DNA of 64,000 nucleotides, taken from NCBI GenBank assembly GCA_001464935.1, contig LNEL01000049.1, forward strand, positions 62,001-126,000, given 5' to 3'. The notes under the pieces were generated by a model. That model was not told the DNA's origin. It searched no databases and was given only the letters and a program-made list of their open reading frames with translations. The stretch comes from Gammaproteobacteria bacterium Ga0077536 (lineage in GTDB: Bacteria > Pseudomonadota > Gammaproteobacteria > Ga0077536). The translations under genes were made by a program, and so were the position numbers. Below, one piece after another: positions 869 to 27,786 of this stretch (its first letter is position 1; each line of letters opens with the position of its first letter).

Positions 869-3557
869 TGAGCGCCGCGATGATCTCCCCGCGCAACGCA
901 TCCTGTCGCACCGCATTCTCGAAGGGCCGATCGTCGAAGTCGGTGATGTAGAAATAGTCTTCCGCGCGCTCCCCGATCGTCGCAATGCGCGCGTCGTGCA
1001 GCCGCACGCCCTGGTTCTGCATCGCGCGGCCGACCAGCGAGAGGAAACCGGGACGATCGGCCGCAATCACCTCCATGACGGTACGGGCATTGACGGTGTC
1101 GGGCGTGAACGTGACGGATGCCGGCACGCTGAAGTTGCGCAGACGGCGGCTCACCGCCGGCGTGGCGCGCGCCGGTGCGATCTCTCGCGCGCGCAGCGCG
1201 GAGCGCAGTCGGCTCTGGATGTCGTGCAGTCGTTGCGCGTCATCGACGACGCTGCGCGTCTCGGCATCGAGGACCGTGAACGTGTCGAGGGTATAGCCGG
1301 CGCTCGAGGTGATGATGCGCGCGTCCTGCACGTCGAGCCGCAGTCGATCCAGCGTGGCGGTTGCAATGGCGAACAGGAAGTCCGAGTCCGTGGCATAGAT
1401 GAACACCGACGTGCCGCCCTTGCTGTCGAAGTTGCGCAGTGCGATCAAGGGCAGGTCGTCTTCATCCGCCTCGAGGATCGTTTCGGTGTGCCAGGCGATT
1501 TCGATCGGCCGGTGACGCAGGAAGTACTCCTCGCTGAGCGTGCCCCACAGCAGCGATACCGAATGTTCGGGAAAGCGTTCTGTATCGATGAGCTTGCGCG
1601 CTTCCTGGCGCGTTGCCTCGGTGCGTTCGACGCGCTCGACCCGCGCCTCGATGCCGGTGCGCAGCGCGCGCAGCGTCGCGAGGTAGAGCTCGAAGATCAG
1701 CGAGCGCTTCCAGCCCGTCCACAGTTGCGGATTGGTGCCGCGAATATCGGCGATCGTCAGCAGGAACAGGTAGTCGAGGCGGGCCTCGTCGCCGACAATG
1801 GCCGCAAAGCGCTGGATGACTTCCGGATCGTAGATGTCCTCGCGCTGCGAGGTCGCCGACATCACCAGATGATTGTTGACCAGCCACGCGACGAGATTCG
1901 TGTCGTAGTTGCTGAGTCCGTGCGCCAGGCAGAAGGCGGTGGCCTCCTGGGCGCCGACTTCGCTGTGATCGCGGCCGGTGCCCTTGCCGACGTCATGGTA
2001 CAGACCCGCGATGTACAGCAGTTCGAGCTTGGGGATGCGTTCGATGGCCTGGCGCACGAGATCGGGCTGATCCTCGGTCGTCACCGGATACGAAAAGCGC
2101 CGCATCATCAGCAGCACGAACAGCAGATGTTCATCGACCGTGTACACGTGGAAGAGGTCGAACTGCATCAGGCCCTCGATCCGCGCGAATTCCGGCAGGT
2201 AGGCCGCCAGTACGCCGTAGCGATGCATGCGCTGCAGTTCATGGCCGATCAGGCGCGGCTGGCGGATGATCTCCATGAACAGGCTGCGCGCCCGGATGTC
2301 GCGACGGAACTTGTCGTCGATCAGGTACAGGCTTTCGCGAATGAGCCGAATCGTGCTCGCGCGCACCCCCTTGATCCATGGATTGCGCTGGATCAGCAGG
2401 AAAATCTCGAGCAGCGCCGGCGGCGTGCGCCGGAACACCTGGTCGCTCGTCACTTCGATGTAGTTGCCGCGGACCTGGAAGCGCCGGTTCAGCGGCGAGG
2501 CGCGCGCTTCGCGATCGGGATGCAGGATGGCCTCCTGGAACAGACCCAGCAGCATCTCGTTGAGGCGGCCCAGTTCACGCACCGTGCGATAGAACCCGCG
2601 CATGAACTGTTCGACCGCGCGGTTGTGCGATTCGTCGACGAAACCGAACACCTCGGACACGCGGCGCTGGTAGTCGAACAGCAACCGGTCTTCGCGACGA
2701 CCCGCGAGATAATGCAACGCGCACCGAATGCGCCACAGGTGATGTCGGCCCCGCACGAGCGCGGCGTACTCGTCAGCGGTCAGAAAGCCGTTTTCGATGA
2801 GGCCGCGCAGGCCGGCTGTCTGGAAATGCCGGTTGGCAACCCACGCGATGATCTGGATGTCGCGCAGACCGCCCGGGCTTTCCTTGATGTTCGGTTCGAG
2901 CTGCTGAAAGGCGTCATTGAAGCGCTGATGGCGCCGTTCCTGCTCGTCGAGCTTGGCCTTGAAAAACAGGTCCGTGGCCCAGATGCGATCGGTGGCGGTG
3001 GCCGCGCGCACTGCCTCGAGCAGCGCGGCCGGTCCTTCGACGAGCCGCGCCTCCATCAGGTTCGTCATGATCGTGATGTCGCCGCTTGCCGCGCTCTCGC
3101 ACTCGTCGACCGTGCGCACACTGTGGCCGACCTCGAGCCCGATGTCCCACAGGAACGTGATCAGCCGCTCGATGCGGCCGCGCGTGTCGTCATCGAGCGC
3201 GCTCCCGAGCACGATGCAGATGTCGACGTCCGAATACGGATGAAGCTCGCCGCGGCCGTAGCCACCGACGGCCAGCAGCGCGTGCGCGCTGTCGCCCGGC
3301 CCGCAGTAGTGCCACGCGCGCCGGATGACTTCGTCGATGCAGAAGGCCCGCAGGCCGACGATTTCCTCCACCGGGGCGCCGCCGAAGAAGCGCTGCTTCA
3401 GGCGTTCATTGACGCGCGCGAGCACCGCGCGGCAACCGGCGAGCACGGTCGGACCGCTGTCCTGCTCGAACGCGGACTCGAGGGCCTCGAAGTCGAGCGC
3501 CTGTTCGAGGGACTCGTCAGCTACCGAGACGACGGACTGCATCAGGGCCAAATTCAA
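861..3557 (-). CDS. glnD: Bifunctional [protein-PII] uridylyltransferase / uridylyl-removing enzyme GlnD
   Basis: 898 aa, the usual GlnD length. GlnD senses glutamine and uridylylates or deuridylylates PII, controlling glutamine synthetase and NtrC. An N-terminal nucleotidyltransferase domain carries GGYGRGELHPYSDVD (about residues 98-112, with the G...DxD metal site). A central HD hydrolase motif GLYHDVGKG lies near residue 515. Two C-terminal ACT repeats are visible (VFIYATDSDFLFA and MEVIAADRPGFLSL). The start at 3557 overlaps the end of map by 41 bp; an alternative ATG lies 15 bp downstream. It forms a minus-strand run map-glnD-mutH. Confidence 0.97.
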   Translation of the reverse strand: MNLALMQSVVSVADESLEQALDFEALESAFEQDSGPTVLAGCRAVLARVNERLKQRFFGGAPVEEIVGLRAFCIDEVIRRAWHYCGPGDSAHALLAVGGYGRGELHPYSDVDICIVLGSALDDDTRGRIERLITFLWDIGLEVGHSVRTVDECESAASGDITIMTNLMEARLVEGPAALLEAVRAATATDRIWATDLFFKAKLDEQERRHQRFNDAFQQLEPNIKESPGGLRDIQIIAWVANRHFQTAGLRGLIENGFLTADEYAALVRGRHHLWRIRCALHYLAGRREDRLLFDYQRRVSEVFGFVDESHNRAVEQFMRGFYRTVRELGRLNEMLLGLFQEAILHPDREARASPLNRRFQVRGNYIEVTSDQVFRRTPPALLEIFLLIQRNPWIKGVRASTIRLIRESLYLIDDKFRRDIRARSLFMEIIRQPRLIGHELQRMHRYGVLAAYLPEFARIEGLMQFDLFHVYTVDEHLLFVLLMMRRFSYPVTTEDQPDLVRQAIERIPKLELLYIAGLYHDVGKGTGRDHSEVGAQEATAFCLAHGLSNYDTNLVAWLVNNHLVMSATSQREDIYDPEVIQRFAAIVGDEARLDYLFLLTIADIRGTNPQLWTGWKRSLIFELYLATLRALRTGIEARVERVERTEATRQEARKLIDTERFPEHSVSLLWGTLSEEYFLRHRPIEIAWHTETILEADEDDLPLIALRNFDSKGGTSVFIYATDSDFLFAIATATLDRLRLDVQDARIITSSAGYTLDTFTVLDAETRSVVDDAQRLHDIQSRLRSALRAREIAPARATPAVSRRLRNFSVPASVTFTPDTVNARTVMEVIAADRPGFLSLVGRAMQNQGVRLHDARIATIGERAEDYFYITDFDDRPFENAVRQDALRGEIIAALND

Positions 3558-4320
3558 AATGTTCCTCGCGACGGGCAGTCAGCACTTCGCAGCCCGTGGG
3601 CGTGACGAGTACCGTGTGCTCCCATTGAGCCGACAGGCTGTGGTCCTTGGTGACGACGGTCCAGCCGTCCGGCAGCAGGCGCACCTGCCGCTTGCCGGCG
3701 TTGATCATCGGTTCGATCGTGAAAGTCATGCCTTCCTGGAGGATGTAGCCGGTGCCGCGCTGACCATAGTGCAGGACCTGCGGTTCTTCGTGGAATTCCC
3801 GCCCGATGCCATGCCCGCAGTATTCGCGGACCACCGAGTAATTGCGGGACTCCGCGAGGGTCTGGATGGCGGCGCCGATATCCCCCAGGCGGGTGCCCGG
3901 CCCGACGAGGCCGATGCCGACGCACAGGCACTCGTAGGCCGTGTCGATCAGGCGCCGTGCCTTGATGGAGGCGTCACCGACGACGAACATCTGGCTCGTG
4001 TCGCCGTGAAACCCGTCCTTGATGACAGTGATGTCGACATTGACGATATCGCCATCCTTCAGGCGTTTGTCGTTCGGAATCCCGTGGCAGACGACGTGAT
4101 TGATCGAGGTGCAAATGGATTTCGGGAAGCCGTGGTAGTTCAGCGGCGCCGGGATGGCCTGCTGGTGGTGGACGATGTAATCGTGGCACAGGCGGTCGAG
4201 TTCGTCCGTCGCCACGCCCGGCACCACGTGGGGCGCGATCATCTCGAGCACCTCGGCCGCCAGCCGGCAGGCGACGCGCATCTTCTCGATTTCGGCCGGG
4301 GTCTTGATCGTGACAGGCAT
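3517..4320 (-). CDS. map: Type I methionine aminopeptidase
   Basis: 267 aa. Removes the initiator methionine from nascent proteins in the cytoplasm. All five metal ligands of the pita-bread fold are seen: the two Asp in NVDITVIKDGFHGDTS, His in GHGIGREFHEEP, Glu in FTIEPMIN and Glu in QWEHTVLVT. Length matches the E. coli enzyme (about 264 aa). It is divergent from rpsB, with a 186-bp shared upstream region, the classical map/rpsB arrangement of Gammaproteobacteria. Its 3' end overlaps the start of glnD. Confidence 0.97.
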   Translation of the reverse strand: MPVTIKTPAEIEKMRVACRLAAEVLEMIAPHVVPGVATDELDRLCHDYIVHHQQAIPAPLNYHGFPKSICTSINHVVCHGIPNDKRLKDGDIVNVDITVIKDGFHGDTSQMFVVGDASIKARRLIDTAYECLCVGIGLVGPGTRLGDIGAAIQTLAESRNYSVVREYCGHGIGREFHEEPQVLHYGQRGTGYILQEGMTFTIEPMINAGKRQVRLLPDGWTVVTKDHSLSAQWEHTVLVTPTGCEVLTARREEHFEFGPDAVRRLGS

Positions 4321-4506: not shown

Positions 4507-5385
4507 ATGGCAGACGTTTCCATGCGCCAGATGCTCGAGGCTGGCGTGCACTTCGGTCACCAGACCCGATTCTGGCATCCCAAGATGGCGCCGTACATCT
4601 TTGGCGAGCGGAATAAAATCCACATCATCAATCTTGAAAAGTCCCTCCCGCTGTTCAACGACGCGATGAACTTCATCGGCCGGATGGCAGCCAAGCGCGG
4701 CAAGATCCTCTTCGTCGGCACCAAGCGCGCCGCCCAGGATGCAGTCGAGCGCGAGGCCATCCGCTGCGGCATGCCCTATGTCAGCCGTCGCTGGCTCGGC
4801 GGCATGCTCACCAACTTCAAGACGGTGAAGCAGTCGATCAAGCGCCTGAAGGAACTCGAGGACACGATCAACAACGGCGGCCTGGACCGCATTTCGAAGC
4901 GCGAGGGCCTGCAGGTCCGCCGCGAGTACGAAAAGCTCAATCACGGCCTGGCCGGCATCAAGGACATGGAGCGTCTGCCGGACGCGCTGTTCATCATCGA
5001 CGTCGGCTACGAAAACATTGCGATCGCCGAGGCGGCCAAGCTGAAGATCCCGGTCATCGCGATCGTCGATACCAACAGCAAGCCGGACCACGTCGATTAC
5101 GTCGTGCCGGGCAACGATGACGCCATCAGCGCAATCAACCTCTACACCAAGTCCGCCGCCGATGCGGTGCTGGACGCGCGCACCACGCTGGCCGCAGCAG
5201 GTGCCGGTGGCCAGGACGATTTCGTCGAACTCGACGCGACGGGCGCGCCCGTCGTGCGTGGCCCGGAGACCGCGGCCGAGGCCGAGGAAGCCGCGCGCCG
5301 CAACGCCAAGAAGGCACCGCCGAAGAAGAAGGTGGTGCGCAAGGCTGGCGGTCCGGGGGCGGGCGCCGAGACGACTGCCGAGTAA
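4507..5385 (+). CDS. rpsB: 30S ribosomal protein S2
   Basis: 292 aa. The start is set by the CAGGAG Shine-Dalgarno at 4495-4500 ahead of ATG 4507. The S2 hallmarks [22 protein letters not shown], read as [14 protein letters not shown] plus TRFWHPKM, lie at the N-terminus, and [20 protein letters not shown] and [10 protein letters not shown] follow. E. coli S2 is about 241 aa. The extra 50 or so residues form a C-terminal tail that is first Ala/Glu-rich and then strongly basic ([12 protein letters not shown]). Co-transcribed with tsf. Confidence 0.98.
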
Positions 5386-5400
5386 ACACAGCAAGACGAT

Positions 5401-5429
5401 GCCCGGGTGCGCCCTGTGGCGGCCCGGGC
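5401..5429 (+). terminator. Hairpin in the rpsB-tsf spacer (attenuator-like)
   Basis: GCCCGGG at 5401-5407 pairs with CCCGGGC at 5423-5429 around a 15-nt loop. There is no U-tract, so it is more likely a processing or partial attenuation element that lowers tsf expression relative to rpsB than a full terminator. Confidence 0.4.
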
Positions 5430-5448
5430 CTGCCGGAGTAAATGACAG

Positions 5449-6327
5449 ATGCAGATTAGTGCGGCGGCGGTGAAGGAACTGCGTGAGCGTTCCGGCGCCG
5501 GAATGATGGAATGCAAGAATGCGCTGGTGGCGACCGAGGGCGACCTCGAGGCGGCCCTGGAACACCTGCGCAAGTCAGGAGCGGCGAAAGCCGCCAAGAA
5601 GGCCGGCCGCATCGCGGCTGAGGGCGCGGTCGTGATCGCCGAAGCCGCGGGCGCCGCAGCGCTCGTCGAAGTCAATTCGGAAACCGACTTCGCGGCCAAT
5701 GAACCGAATTTCGTGGCCTTCGCCGATGCGGTCGCGCGCACGGTGCTGAAGGCCCGTCCGGCCGACGTCGAGACCCTGTCGGCGACCACGCTCGACGGCG
5801 CTGCCGAGACGGTCGAATCCGCGCGCCAGCAGCTGGTGCTGAAGATCGGCGAGAACATCTCGATCCGCCGCTTCGAAGTCCGCCAGACCGACGGCCTCAT
5901 CGGTGCCTATCGTCACGGCAAGCGCATCGGTGTGCTGGTCGAACTGACCGGCGGCACGCAGGAGATGGCCAAGGACATCGCGATGCACATCGCGGCGTCG
6001 AACCCGGTGTGCATCGCCGAGAGCGACGTGCCGCCGGCGCTGATCGCGAAGGAGAAGGAAATCCGCCTCGCGCAGGCTGCGACGAGTGGCAAGCCGCCGG
6101 AAATCATCGAGAAGATGATTGTCGGCCAGATGCGCAAGTTCGTCGGCGAAATCACCCTGCTGGGCCAGCCGTTCGTCAAGGATCCGGACACGACCGTCGG
6201 CAAGCTGCTGGGCAAGGACGGCACGGTCAAGGCCTTCACCCGCTTCGAAGTGGGCGAGGGCATCGAGAAGAAGGAATCCAACTTTGCCGAGGAAGTCATG
6301 GCCCAGGCCCGCAGTGCGGAATCCTGA
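5449..6327 (+). CDS. tsf: Translation elongation factor Ts
   Basis: 292 aa, the normal length. EF-Ts is the guanine nucleotide exchange factor for EF-Tu. The N-terminal UBA-like segment ending in LRERSGAGMMECKNAL and the EF-Ts signature ALVEVNSETDFAANEP are both clear; KDIAMHIAASNP and VGKLLGKDG follow in the core. ATG 5449 follows a CCGGAGTAA ribosome site. It lies between rpsB and pyrH, as in most bacteria. Confidence 0.98.
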   Translation: MQISAAAVKELRERSGAGMMECKNALVATEGDLEAALEHLRKSGAAKAAKKAGRIAAEGAVVIAEAAGAAALVEVNSETDFAANEPNFVAFADAVARTVLKARPADVETLSATTLDGAAETVESARQQLVLKIGENISIRRFEVRQTDGLIGAYRHGKRIGVLVELTGGTQEMAKDIAMHIAASNPVCIAESDVPPALIAKEKEIRLAQAATSGKPPEIIEKMIVGQMRKFVGEITLLGQPFVKDPDTTVGKLLGKDGTVKAFTRFEVGEGIEKKESNFAEEVMAQARSAES

Positions 6328-24231: not shown

Positions 24232-24732
24232 TCAGCGTTCGGGAAACAGCGGATCGGGCATGTCGAAGAATTCAAGATCCAGCGCCTGTCGGCTGTGATT
24301 GTCGCCAGGGCCGCGTGGCGCTACGACCTCGCCGAGCTGCGGCAGGTTCTTGCGCAGCTTGGTGCCGGCCGCGCTTACTTTCAGTTGCAGTTCGGGCGAA
24401 AACGGCAGCACGAGCGCCCGGGGGACCACTGCGCTGGAGTCGGTCGCAAAGCGCGTGACCCAGAGATAAATCGCGCCCTTGTTGACGCCACTCTTGTCGG
24501 GCTCCTCGATGTGGATGCCGTTCAGATTGAAGCGCGGCGCAAACCCGGAGTGGGTCGGCCACCCCAGGAGATCGGGGATCGCGCGCCAGGTCATCACGCC
24601 GAGCGCGGCGACCATGGCCACGGCGGCGAGCTTCACCCACCACGCAAAGCGCGTGAACAGCACGACGTTCAGTGACATCAGGCCCAGCAGGCCAAACGCC
24701 GCCAGAAAACTCGGAAGCGCCCAGCCAGTCAT
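24232..24732 (-). CDS. Two-span membrane protein of unknown function (paralogue of the 24763-25290 product)
   Basis: 166 aa, not recognised. Two predicted transmembrane helices fill residues 5-53. A soluble extracytoplasmic part follows with DLLGWPT, RFNLNGIHIEEPDK, PRALVLPFSPEL and KLRKNLPQLGEV. These blocks are repeated in the next upstream product in the same order, so the two genes arose by duplication. It is the last gene of the tight minus-strand run that starts with an L,D-transpeptidase and includes an ExbB-like channel, which suggests an envelope role. The C-terminus is Asp/Pro-rich. Confidence 0.8.
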   Translation of the reverse strand: MTGWALPSFLAAFGLLGLMSLNVVLFTRFAWWVKLAAVAMVAALGVMTWRAIPDLLGWPTHSGFAPRFNLNGIHIEEPDKSGVNKGAIYLWVTRFATDSSAVVPRALVLPFSPELQLKVSAAGTKLRKNLPQLGEVVAPRGPGDNHSRQALDLEFFDMPDPLFPER

Positions 24733-24762
24733 GATGCAGCCATCCAGCAGTGTTTCATGGTG

Positions 24763-25290
24763 TCAGCCTCCTGCTTCCTTGCTCGGTGGTCCGGCAGGCG
24801 GCGCGTCGATGAACTTGATTTTCACACTCTTCTGGCCGAGCTGCTGGCGATCGCTGGGCACGCCGTGCACCTCGTCGTCAGGTTCGGCCTCGCCGATTTG
24901 CGGAATGTTCTGACGCAGCTTGCCCTGGCCTTCCTGGAAGACCGATTTGTAACCCGGTGAAAATGGCAGCTTGTACGCGCGTGGGCGCTGATCCGCATCG
25001 GGGTCGAGATCGGAGGCCCAGAAAAAGACGTTGCCGGCGTTGCCGGTGCGCTTGTCCGGCTCCTGGATATATACCGCCAGCAGGTTGAAGCGTTTCGGGA
25101 CGGTGCGATCGGTCGGCCAGCCGAGCAGGGCCGGCAGCGCGAAATAGCACGCGCAATACGCAGCCGACACCAGCACCACCAGTCCTGCCTTGACGCGCCA
25201 GTGCCAGCGCGAAAAAAGGCTCAGCAGCAGCAGCGCCAGCCCCACCACCACATAGGCCGCCACGATGGCGGCATGTCCGAAGCTCAGCAT
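24763..25290 (-). CDS. Two-span membrane protein of unknown function (paralogue of the 24232-24732 product)
   Basis: 175 aa, not recognised. Two N-terminal transmembrane helices (about 7-25 and 33-55) precede a domain with ALLGWPT, RFNLLAVYIQEPDK, PRAYKLPFSPGY and KLRQNIPQIGE. The same blocks occur in the downstream neighbour, defining a small family with consensus LLGWPT...RFNL...EPDK...PRA..LPFSP...KLR.N.PQ.GE. Its start is 6 bp from the stop of the YfaP-like gene, so co-translation with the ExbB-like complex is very likely. The tail is Pro/Gly-rich. Confidence 0.82.
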   Translation of the reverse strand: MLSFGHAAIVAAYVVVGLALLLLSLFSRWHWRVKAGLVVLVSAAYCACYFALPALLGWPTDRTVPKRFNLLAVYIQEPDKRTGNAGNVFFWASDLDPDADQRPRAYKLPFSPGYKSVFQEGQGKLRQNIPQIGEAEPDDEVHGVPSDRQQLGQKSVKIKFIDAPPAGPPSKEAGG

Positions 25291-25296
25291 GCAGTG

Positions 25297-25920
25297 TTAT
25301 TCCCGCTTGAACGCCTTGGCGACGAGGTTCTTCGGCACGTGATTGATGTTGGCCACGCGCCCGTCACCGATGATCGTGAAGCGCACTGCAGTGCGCTCCT
25401 CGTCCTTCCGCTTGAGCGTGATCGTGTCGTAGTAGATCACTTCGAGGACCGGGTTGACCTTGTCGACGCGGATTTGCACCGGCACCGGCTCGTTGTTCTC
25501 GCTTGCATAATAATGCACGTTCACGACGTACTCGCCGGTGATCACGGCGCGTATCGTCGTGACTTCCTGGTTCAGCGGATTCTCGATGTCCTTGCCGTTG
25601 ATCGACAGCGTGTCGTTCAGGTTGCCGCGATCGTCCCGGTCGAGATGGACCAGGCCCGCATTCGCGTTCTTGAAATAGGTCAGGTTGCCGGCCGGATCCT
25701 CGACATAGGTGTCGATGTCGTTCGGATTCCGGTCGGGCCAGGTCACCGTGATGATGTACTCGGCCTTCGGATCGATCTTGCCCTGCTTGGCGATCGGGTT
25801 CATGAACAGCACCGCGAGCACGAACAGGTAGGTGATCGCCTGGATGATCTTGAACAGGACGGCGGTGATGGGATCGAACGGCTGCCGGTTGCGGCTCGAG
25901 GAACTGGCAAACGCTGACAT
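25297..25920 (-). CDS. Single-span membrane protein with a YfaP/DUF2135-like extracytoplasmic domain
   Basis: 207 aa from ATG 25920. One hydrophobic segment (about residues 20-42) follows a Ser/Arg-rich cytoplasmic tail. The rest is a beta-rich domain with WPDRNPNDIDTYVEDPAGN, GLVHLDRDDRG and GEYVVNVHYYAS. This pattern resembles YfaP-type domains (divalent-ion-like Asp-rich turn, then a Gly-Tyr-Tyr strand). Size, topology and position 16 bp after a MotA/TolQ/ExbB-like gene are those of an ExbD/TolR/MotB partner, but no ExbD domain is visible. Function is unknown; the partner role is inference. Confidence 0.8.
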   Translation of the reverse strand: MSAFASSSSRNRQPFDPITAVLFKIIQAITYLFVLAVLFMNPIAKQGKIDPKAEYIITVTWPDRNPNDIDTYVEDPAGNLTYFKNANAGLVHLDRDDRGNLNDTLSINGKDIENPLNQEVTTIRAVITGEYVVNVHYYASENNEPVPVQIRVDKVNPVLEVIYYDTITLKRKDEERTAVRFTIIGDGRVANINHVPKNLVAKAFKRE

Positions 25921-25936
25921 GCGGTGACGGTCCGGA

Positions 25937-26686
25937 TCACGCAGATGCCGGTTGCGACGGGCCCGACAGCACTTCCTTGATGTGCACGGTGACCTGCAAC
26001 AGCGCCTCCAGGCCACGGTCCAGCAGGTAGTAGGGCACCGAGAGCAGGATGCCGGCGACGAGGCTCGCCATCGTCGTGTACAGCGCGGTGCTCATGCCAA
26101 CGCTCATCTGCTGCAGCACCTTCTGCATCGTGGAGGCGTCGAGGGTGCCGGACTGTGCGACCGAGCTCAGCATCAGGATGAAGCCGACGAGCGTGCCGAG
26201 AAAGCCGACCTTCAACATCAGGTCGATATAGAACCAGCCGAATTCGTGGGCGCCACGCAGACGCGAGGCGTAGGCGTCGAGGAGATCGGACGGCCCGTCC
26301 GCCGCCTCCGGGCTCACGCGCGAGGCGTGATGGTCGGCGAGATAATCGACGACGAAGCCGGCGGGCAGGCCGGCGGCGCGGGCACTGTCACGGCTGCGCA
26401 GCGCCGCGGCTGCCACTTCGCGACGCTCGAGACGGGAGGCCACCGTGACGGCGTGATTGATTTCACGCGAGAGATAGAGCGTACGGCGGAAGGTGTGGCC
26501 GACGCCGATGAAGTACATCAGGATCAGCACGAGGCAGATGCGGCTCTGATCGGCCCTGACCATCAGCTGCACGAGTTCCTGGTCGACGCCGACCACGATG
26601 CCGAACGTGACGAGCCCGGCCACGACCAGCCACAGCAGCAGCAGCACGTGGGGCTCGGCGAGCAGGAAATTCCAGCGTTGTTTCAT
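25937..26686 (-). CDS. MotA/TolQ/ExbB-family proton-channel-like protein
   Basis: 249 aa. Helices are at about residues 12-35, 48-68, 155-177 and 195-220. The last pair carries the family pattern KVGFLGTLVGFILML and MSTALYTTMASLVAGILL, equivalent to the G-LGT-GM and ALxTTxxG motifs of ExbB/TolQ. Members couple proton flow to work done across the envelope with an ExbD/TolR/MotB partner. Here the next gene encodes an atypical single-span partner. ATG 26686 lacks a clear ribosome site, but TATACT on the minus strand at 26719-26724 could be a local -10. Confidence 0.85.
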   Translation of the reverse strand: MKQRWNFLLAEPHVLLLLWLVVAGLVTFGIVVGVDQELVQLMVRADQSRICLVLILMYFIGVGHTFRRTLYLSREINHAVTVASRLERREVAAAALRSRDSARAAGLPAGFVVDYLADHHASRVSPEAADGPSDLLDAYASRLRGAHEFGWFYIDLMLKVGFLGTLVGFILMLSSVAQSGTLDASTMQKVLQQMSVGMSTALYTTMASLVAGILLSVPYYLLDRGLEALLQVTVHIKEVLSGPSQPASA

Positions 26687-26728
26687 GGTTGAAAGGTCGG
26701 CGCTTGAATGTCGGTCCGAGTATACACG

Positions 26729-27205
26729 TCAGTCCTCTTCGAGGACGAAGGCGAGAATCTCGCGCAGGAGGCCGTTCATGCGCGCGGCGAACGCGTTGAC
26801 GCGCGCGTCGGGGTGATCTTCCGGCAACAGGATGACGCTGACGATGGTGCGCTTCCCTTCCTCGTGCACGGTGAGGCGGCAGGGCATCTGCGCGACGTAA
26901 CCCGGATCGACCAGCAGCACTTCCCGCGCGTACTCGAGGTTGCAGAAGTGAATGACTTCGACCTCGGGAAAATCCTCGTAGCCGCGCTCGCGCAGCCCCT
27001 TGCCAATCGTATTGCGCCCGGTGATGCGGAAATTGCGCTCGGTGATCGCGAAGTCGAGCTCGAGAATGACGTCGTCGAAAGGCTTGTCGGTCGCGCCGCG
27101 GACGATCAGGGCAGTGGAGGGCCGCGCCGGTGGCGGCTCGGACGCCGCGCCGACCGGGATCGCCCCGCAGCACAGCAGCGCGGCGAGGAGCAGCGCCCGG
27201 ATCAT
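26729..27205 (-). CDS. Exported DUF302-domain protein
   Basis: 158 aa. A signal peptide ends near VGAASE. The DUF302 core has FAITERNFRITGRNTIG, read as FAITERNFRI plus TGRNTIGKGLRERGY, then EVIHFCNLEYAREVLL, PCRLTVHEE and VSVILLPEDHP. DUF302 proteins have no established general reaction. ATG overlaps the stop of the upstream L,D-transpeptidase by 4 bp (27202-27205), so the two are one translation unit. A 41-bp gap leads to the ExbB-like gene. Confidence 0.88.
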   Translation of the reverse strand: MIRALLLAALLCCGAIPVGAASEPPPARPSTALIVRGATDKPFDDVILELDFAITERNFRITGRNTIGKGLRERGYEDFPEVEVIHFCNLEYAREVLLVDPGYVAQMPCRLTVHEEGKRTIVSVILLPEDHPDARVNAFAARMNGLLREILAFVLEED

Positions 27206-27786
27206 TCGCGAATGACCACTTTCGTGCCGACGGCGACGTAGTTGCGCAGTTCGTTGACGTCCCGGTTGGTCAGCGCGATGCAGCCCTGGGTCCAGTCCAG
27301 ATGGCGTTGCACCTTGAGGCGATCGGCGTTCTCGTCGCCCAGGCCGTGAATGCCGACCGCGCCGCCGAGCGGGGTGTTCTGCGGCGGGCGCTGCTCGGTG
27401 CGTACCGAGTCGACGATGCGATCGAAATCCTGGCGCGTGATCAGCCGGTTCTTCAGACCGAAGAAGGCGTCCTTCACGTTGGGATAGTTCAGGCGCATGA
27501 AAAAGTGGAACGCACTGCCTTCATTGAAGTCGGTGATGCGGTAGACGCCGAGCGGCGTCTTGTTGTCGCCGCGGATACGCTTGTCGCCGAGGCCACCCTT
27601 GCCGGTGGCGATCTGGAAGCGCCGGGTGACCTTCTCGCCGTTCTTCACCAGCAGCACGCGTTCGGACTTGTCGATTTCCAGCGCGTACGGCGGTTCGTCG
27701 TCGAATGCCATGCCGTCGGCGTGCACCGTGCCGGCGACGAGGCCCAGCCAGGCGAACAGTCCCATCCCCACGATTCGTTTGTGCAT
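27202..27786 (-). CDS. YkuD-family L,D-transpeptidase (YafK/DpaA-like)
   Basis: 194 aa from ATG 27786, with a signal peptide ending at TVHADG. The YkuD domain starts YALEIDKSERVLLVKNG. The active site reads GAVGIHGLGDE followed by DWTQGCIALTN, so the usual S/T-H-G-C is T-Q-G-C. The DWTxGCIA form occurs in the YafK/DpaA group, which includes enzymes that cut Lpp from peptidoglycan. It probably acts on periplasmic peptidoglycan crosslinks or Lpp attachment. It is the first gene of a likely six-gene operon ending at 24232. Confidence 0.9.
   Translation of the reverse strand: MHKRIVGMGLFAWLGLVAGTVHADGMAFDDEPPYALEIDKSERVLLVKNGEKVTRRFQIATGKGGLGDKRIRGDNKTPLGVYRITDFNEGSAFHFFMRLNYPNVKDAFFGLKNRLITRQDFDRIVDSVRTEQRPPQNTPLGGAVGIHGLGDENADRLKVQRHLDWTQGCIALTNRDVNELRNYVAVGTKVVIRE

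Follow-up and report, generated by a model that had tools for sequence, protein, structure and literature searches.

A conserved EXB-YFAP-P5 gene core encoding a probable ExbBD-like membrane machine, with an altered YFAP helix in one clade

The window (the whole stretch of DNA analysed, 64,000 nucleotides of contig LNEL01000049.1 from assembly GCA_001464935.1 of Gammaproteobacteria bacterium Ga0077536) carries an operon for an ExbB/TolQ/MotA-type protein (EXB), a protein with a single membrane span (YFAP) and two paralogous two-span proteins (P5 and P6). We propose that a machine of the ExbBD/TolQR/MotAB kind, as yet undescribed, probably has these proteins as its membrane core, and that its ion site has been rewired in the clade to which the window belongs. 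The real unit is a three-gene core of EXB, YFAP and P5, to which the genes of an L,D-transpeptidase-like protein (LDT) and of a DUF302 protein are an upstream extension.

Conservation and layout of the three-gene core

A scan with the YFAP alignment, taking one genome per species, found at least 375 relatives, and the locus counts given here rest on the best 80 of them, which come from Gamma- and Alphaproteobacteria and include Methylohalomonas lacus, Hydrocarboniphaga effusa and Candidatus Thiodiazotropha. EXB precedes YFAP in 79 of the 80 loci, one or two P5 genes then come in 78, and all three genes are found in 77; within the window's own family they adjoin in most loci. Surveying 369 genomes of the class, we found YFAP in 40 and P5 in 36, every one of the 36 being among the 40 (Fisher test, 8e-46), and EXB in nearly all the genomes that bear YFAP or P5. 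This genome-neighbourhood survey shows the co-conservation on which the original prediction depended. Between species of the genus, the ratio of nonsynonymous to synonymous substitution rates (dN/dS) was 0.07-0.13 for YFAP, 0.15-0.26 for EXB and 0.11-0.29 for P5/P6: the four genes are under purifying selection and, with ratios this low, they are in use. Because the arrangement recurs in two classes and the four core genes have dN/dS of 0.07-0.29, it is not the product of chance.

The features of the operon, all on the minus strand, are the following.

25937..26686 (-): EXB, ExbB/TolQ/MotA-type protein of 249 amino acids with four predicted spans (PF01618, 2.4e-8; alignments; hydropathy)
26015..26236 (-): third and fourth helices of EXB, residues 151-224, holding six of nine clade-specific residues (I154, F162, L166, S199, S208, P218)
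25297..25920 (-): YFAP, one-span protein of 207 amino acids, proposed ExbD counterpart (Pfam, alignments, AlphaFold model, hhalign)
25801..25872 (-): membrane helix of YFAP, residues 17-40 (AlphaFold model and helix alignment)
25861..25863 (-): YFAP codon 20, Ala in the window and Asp in each of the 40 aligned rows from other clades (alignment)
25849..25851 (-): YFAP codon 24, Lys in the window and all clade rows, Asn in 39 of the 40 others (alignment)
25303..25764 (-): periplasmic beta domain of YFAP, residues 53-206, modelled as a TerD-like fold (VIA-align Z 9.8 to 3ibz, 135 residues aligned; invariant D63, D68, D70, D94, D96, D97 and D103)
24763..25290 (-): P5, two-span protein, first paralogue (LLGWPT/RFNL/EPDK), C-terminal tail lost (paralogue search, alignment, tree)
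24232..24732 (-): P6, two-span protein, second paralogue, C-terminal tail DMPDPLFPER retained (alignment, AlphaFold model, tree)
27202..27786 (-): LDT, L,D-transpeptidase-like protein with a signal-peptide-like start (PF03734, YkuD, 1.5e-22; His and TQGC motif; hydropathy; upstream of EXB in gammaproteobacterial-type loci)
26729..27205 (-): DUF302 protein with a signal-peptide-like start (PF03625, 7.8e-12; hydropathy; recurrence in related loci)

The order LDT-DUF302-EXB-YFAP-P5-P6 and the positions of the six open reading frames are those that had been described, with intergenic gaps in that order of -4, 42, 16, 6 and 30 bp, the second having been given as 41 bp. Pfam matches above cut-off were obtained for LDT (YkuD), the DUF302 protein and EXB (MotA_ExbB, 34.2 bits vs a cut-off of 22.9), and none for P5 or P6. 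A scan for promoters and terminators gave nothing above chance level. The positive-inside rule would put the short P5/P6 loop in the cytoplasm and hence the soluble domain of these proteins in the periplasm, where that of YFAP is expected too.

Two larger arrangements dominate the 80 loci: LDT-DUF302-EXB-YFAP-P5, often with a VWA/FHA gene, and EXB-YFAP-P5-lipoprotein, which is found in 24 loci of alphaproteobacterial type. The VWA/FHA gene lies directly downstream of P5 in 31 of the 80 and encodes a product of about 500 amino acids that combines a VWA domain, a single span and an FHA domain. Neither the window's genus nor genus g8 has this gene, and the only FHA matches left there are generic. 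The proposal of a six-gene system is therefore not supported as it stood: the core comprises three genes, the alphaproteobacterial-type loci lack LDT and DUF302, and the frequent VWA/FHA gene is missing here. The lack of LDT and DUF302 in the 24 loci lends some weight to the idea that LDT and DUF302 are mere neighbours, uninformative on the target of the core, which we regard as possible though somewhat doubtful: the two genes stand before EXB in fixed order in more than 30 loci, and two genomes (G020 and G026) keep LDT-DUF302-P5 together though EXB and YFAP are elsewhere. The separation in these two genomes also indicates that EXB-YFAP can move as a unit. In G026, G020 and L061 (loci L145, L147 and L061), the EXB-YFAP pair, devoid of the helix Asp discussed below, was seen away from P5, beside a long ExbB-like gene that is extended at its N terminus.

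YFAP as the counterpart of ExbD

The original prediction held that the one-span protein replaces ExbD. YFAP does stand at ExbD's place, and outside the window's clade its helix reads DPFTDLLFNALLGF (DPFTDLLFNALLGFTFLF), with an Asp at position 20 that is present in every aligned row and also in five divergent relatives with the helix VFRDVITLALLGF or similar. Aligned by hhalign, the YFAP motif PFTDLLFNALLGF falls in register with the ExbD motif PLIDVVFVLLIFF (PLIDVVFLLLIFF). Proton passage in ExbD and TolR is held to run via a conserved Asp (PMC12215075), and the same goes for MotB (PMC9389320). On account of its gene position, its topology and the helix Asp of its relatives, YFAP is likely the axle subunit and the counterpart of ExbD. 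The name "YfaP-like" given to it was not supported, because the DUF2135 match lies below cut-off and the modelled fold is nearest to TerD. Divergent EXB-YFAP-P5 loci with the motif VFRDVITLALLGF (L183 and L184, in genomes G366 and G247) keep the Asp at position 20 and not the one at 16, and YFAP-like proteins were also seen in L185, L186 and L187. Among cultured environmental isolates, Hydrocarboniphaga effusa AP103 and Methylohalomonas lacus have the Asp form, M. lacus together with LDT.

It had been considered that EXB might always go with a normal ExbD encoded elsewhere; the ordinary ExbDs of the genome sit beside ExbBs of their own. The seven other MotA/ExbB genes each have their own partner, namely a PF02472 ExbD in five cases (two of them in one case), MotB in one, and in the last a pair of Asp-bearing one-span proteins which PF02472 misses; no PF02472 ExbD gene adjoins the EXB of the window. 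A MotA-like gene with two Asp-bearing one-span proteins unseen by PF02472, carrying SFLDTITCGIGAIILLM and LSFLDVMCCGFGAVVLLFM, was noted at L188 (G000:C23:8000-14500), 3393-4190 and 5236-6324, and at L043, 2283-3335, as another ExbD-like pair of the same genome. A related ExbB-like family of 330-410 amino acids (E 1e-13 to 1e-18) occurs in genomes without YFAP, for example at G235:C6:8087-8767.

A proposed altered ion site in the window's clade

Members of the clade, the window included, have the YFAP helix DPITAVLFKIIQAITYLF, with Asp20 changed to Ala, Asn24 to Lys and Leu27 to Gln, each in 10 of 10 rows, a loss of the conserved Asp that the original prediction had missed. In a tree of EXB and YFAP built with the helix columns left out, the Asp-less sequences constitute one branch (99/95) whose sister, L055, keeps the Asp: it was lost once. 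Of the nine EXB residues that mark the clade, six fall within the pair of pore helices (P 0.022). Thr165, Thr204, Thr205, Asp155 and Lys159 of EXB are invariant or nearly so and are kept in the clade; the three threonines, situated in the two C-terminal helices and invariant in 62 rows, are presumably equivalent to the pore threonines of ExbB. The alignment revealed no newly gained acid in the EXB helices of the clade.

These changes could mean that in this clade the complex is a relic of a motor that has ceased to move ions and has become a passive scaffold or tether, holding P5/P6 and the L,D-transpeptidase in place. The sole helix Asp conserved throughout the family is gone, the VWA/FHA gene has gone too from the window's genus and g8, and P5/P6 have diversified. 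We nonetheless consider a relic unlikely, since the YFAP helix shows the same strict conservation within the clade as beyond it, the pore-side residues of EXB have changed too while the pore threonines were kept, dN/dS is low, and a plain tether has no need of a fixed helix Lys. A working machine with a rewired ion site is our preferred reading because the genes are still under purifying selection. It is conceivable, if rather improbable, that a base has replaced the carboxylate as the group that carries the proton: Lys24, which lies a helix turn away from the lost Asp20, would be the protonatable residue, matched by the altered EXB pore residues, and the proton-driven cycle would run with its charge logic reversed.

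Several results weigh against the machine that we propose. The YFAP of the window lacks the Asp that ExbD, TolR and MotB use: the one-span axle with a conserved Asp expected of a 5:2 motor is present in the family at large, and this protein has Ala20. The enrichment of EXB clade-specific changes in the pore helices is modest, and the clade-specific changes share one branch and are therefore unreplicated. The YFAP of the window matches no ExbD model, and a search with PF02472 among 18 YFAP relatives at E up to 1 gave no match. Kinship to ExbD by sequence was rejected: the register is right, and the YFAP helix scores weakly against the ExbD profile (hhalign P 0.006, probability 6%), a value that one control nearly equals at P 0.022. 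The resemblance of the periplasmic domain to TerD suffers likewise, as two eukaryotic entries reach Z scores of 8.1-8.3, as high as the weaker TerD chains, and TerD kinship by sequence was rejected after hhalign comparison of the YFAP profile with 4 and then 24 TerD proteins (P 0.28 and 0.57).

The periplasmic domain of YFAP

The AlphaFold model of YFAP (mean predicted local distance difference test score, pLDDT, of 79) gave Z scores of 8.1-9.8 over 133-136 residues with four TerD chains, from 3ibz (Z 9.8, root-mean-square deviation 3.5, 135 residues aligned) down to 2kxt (Z 8.1); apart from the two eukaryotic entries, all others remained at or below 5.6. We therefore describe the domain as modelled in a TerD-like fold and claim no kinship. 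Foldseek searches with the YFAP and EXB models returned no significant match, sequence searches of solved structures with both proteins returned none, and a search of the YFAP relatives with PF02342 (TerD) at E up to 1 was negative. TerD binds Ca2+ (title of 2kxt), and YFAP has invariant acidic residues (D63, D68, D70 and those of HLDRDDRG), from which metal binding by this domain may be worth testing. The match of the window protein to DUF2135/YfaP (PF09906; 0.0081) reaches 16.7 bits vs a curated cut-off of 22.

A TerD-like fold with invariant acidic residues also agrees with a different role, in which EXB-YFAP-P5 would be mainly an ion-coupled sensor of envelope stress and no force generator, the domain sensing a metal ion or the state of the envelope and signaling via the VWA/FHA protein where present. 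The position of that gene after P5 in 31 loci favors such a role. We find it quite unlikely all the same, because the VWA/FHA gene is not part of the core, as the window's genus lacks it and the alphaproteobacterial-type loci have a lipoprotein gene in its stead, and metal binding is putative.

Duplication of P5

The original prediction took the LLGWPT/RFNL/EPDK pair as extra subunits. The LLGWPT proteins are indeed co-conserved with the one-span protein (36 of 36 genomes), but the pair does not define the system, since most relatives carry one P5. P5 and P6 are paralogues (a search with P5 recovers P6 at 3e-25) that arose by a single duplication within the window's clade, the first copies forming one group (100/98) and the second copies another (99/94), with L052 and L058 represented in both. 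The C-terminal tail DxPDPLFPEK, common in single-copy P5s, was kept in second copies and lost in 10 of 10 first copies; the copies specialised after duplication. A strict link between the loss of the Asp and the duplication was rejected: L054 is Asp-less with one P5, and the Asp-less EXB-YFAP pairs of L061, G020 and G026 have none beside them, the one P5 of G020 and of G026 being at another site. In the tree, the lone P5s of L054, G020 and G026 group with the ancestral P5s, so the Asp could be lost without need for a pair.

Each paralogue has two predicted spans, which correspond in the confident AlphaFold model of P6 (pLDDT 88) to helices 5-26 and 31-55. Its domain has no clear structural relative, and a weak OB-like resemblance (Z up to 6.8) may mean nothing.

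Other genes near the related loci

In the alphaproteobacterial loci (L094-L120), an apt-like gene precedes the operon, the lipoprotein after P5 has a weak DUF3108-like match, and genes resembling, by eye, rodA, mrdA, mreD and mreC lie downstream on the other strand. In several gammaproteobacterial loci, a gene downstream on the opposite strand encodes a conserved protein of some 240 amino acids without a Pfam match (L080:8656-9363, minus strand, and 16 other loci).

Proposed mechanism and significance

In the machine that we propose, EXB would form a multi-subunit ring and two YFAP helices its axle, in a putative 5:2 assembly, with P5/P6 as a third subunit bearing a periplasmic domain. YFAP would bring its TerD-like beta domain into the periplasm, where this domain and that of P5/P6 may pull on, or signal to, a partner in the envelope. 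The LDT of the gammaproteobacterial loci would designate peptidoglycan as the target, and these neighbours make the originally predicted action on peptidoglycan or the outer membrane a plausible one. In the relatives, the helix Asp in the ExbD/TolR register would carry the proton. In the window's clade, where Ala has replaced this Asp, a Lys has appeared one turn deeper and EXB has changed along with them, the ion site might be Lys24 or Asp16 of YFAP, or acidic residues of EXB.

Machines of the ExbB type power the flagellum, nutrient uptake, division, gliding and phage defence. Here is a family with its own periplasmic domain and third membrane subunit in about 11% of the sampled gammaproteobacterial genomes and in marine Alphaproteobacteria. 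Among open-licence papers, where absence is no proof, we found none joining ExbB with TerD, DUF302 or this operon, and the EXB-YFAP-P5 family is apparently both widespread and undescribed. With the natural change of Asp to Ala and the new Lys, one can test directly whether a replacement is possible for the carboxylate of the axle, which is held to be necessary in ExbD, TolR and MotB.

Comparison with known systems

The family shares with ExbBD/TolQR (PF01618 with PF02472) a ring-type MotA_ExbB protein followed by the gene of a one-span protein and, in most relatives, a helix Asp in the ExbD register. It differs in that YFAP is unmatched by PF02472 and has a TerD-like domain in place of the periplasmic domain of ExbD, in the third, two-span subunit, in the four predicted spans of EXB and, in this clade, in the change of Asp to Ala. 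In GldLM, the motor of type IX secretion and gliding, the essential acid is Glu49 of the ring protein GldL (PMC8986121), a precedent for an axle without Asp; however, no sequence match to it was found, the axle Asp is here ancestral and was lost in one clade, and the EXB helices showed no new acid. ZorAB, from the anti-phage defence system Zorya, also combines a MotA/ExbB-type ring protein with a one-span partner, and EXB gives weak ZorA matches (PADLOC, 3e-4), but no other gene of the operon matches any PADLOC Zorya model. YfaP/DUF2135 weakly matches one part of the periplasmic domain of YFAP, over only about 25 residues; the best value among relatives is 6.3e-5, and in the window protein the match is under the curated cut-off. 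With TerD, the Ca2+-binding family of tellurite resistance, the YFAP domain shares the modelled fold and, by eye, acidic residues at comparable places, but it has neither a PF02342 match nor a significant profile match, and it is fused to a membrane helix.

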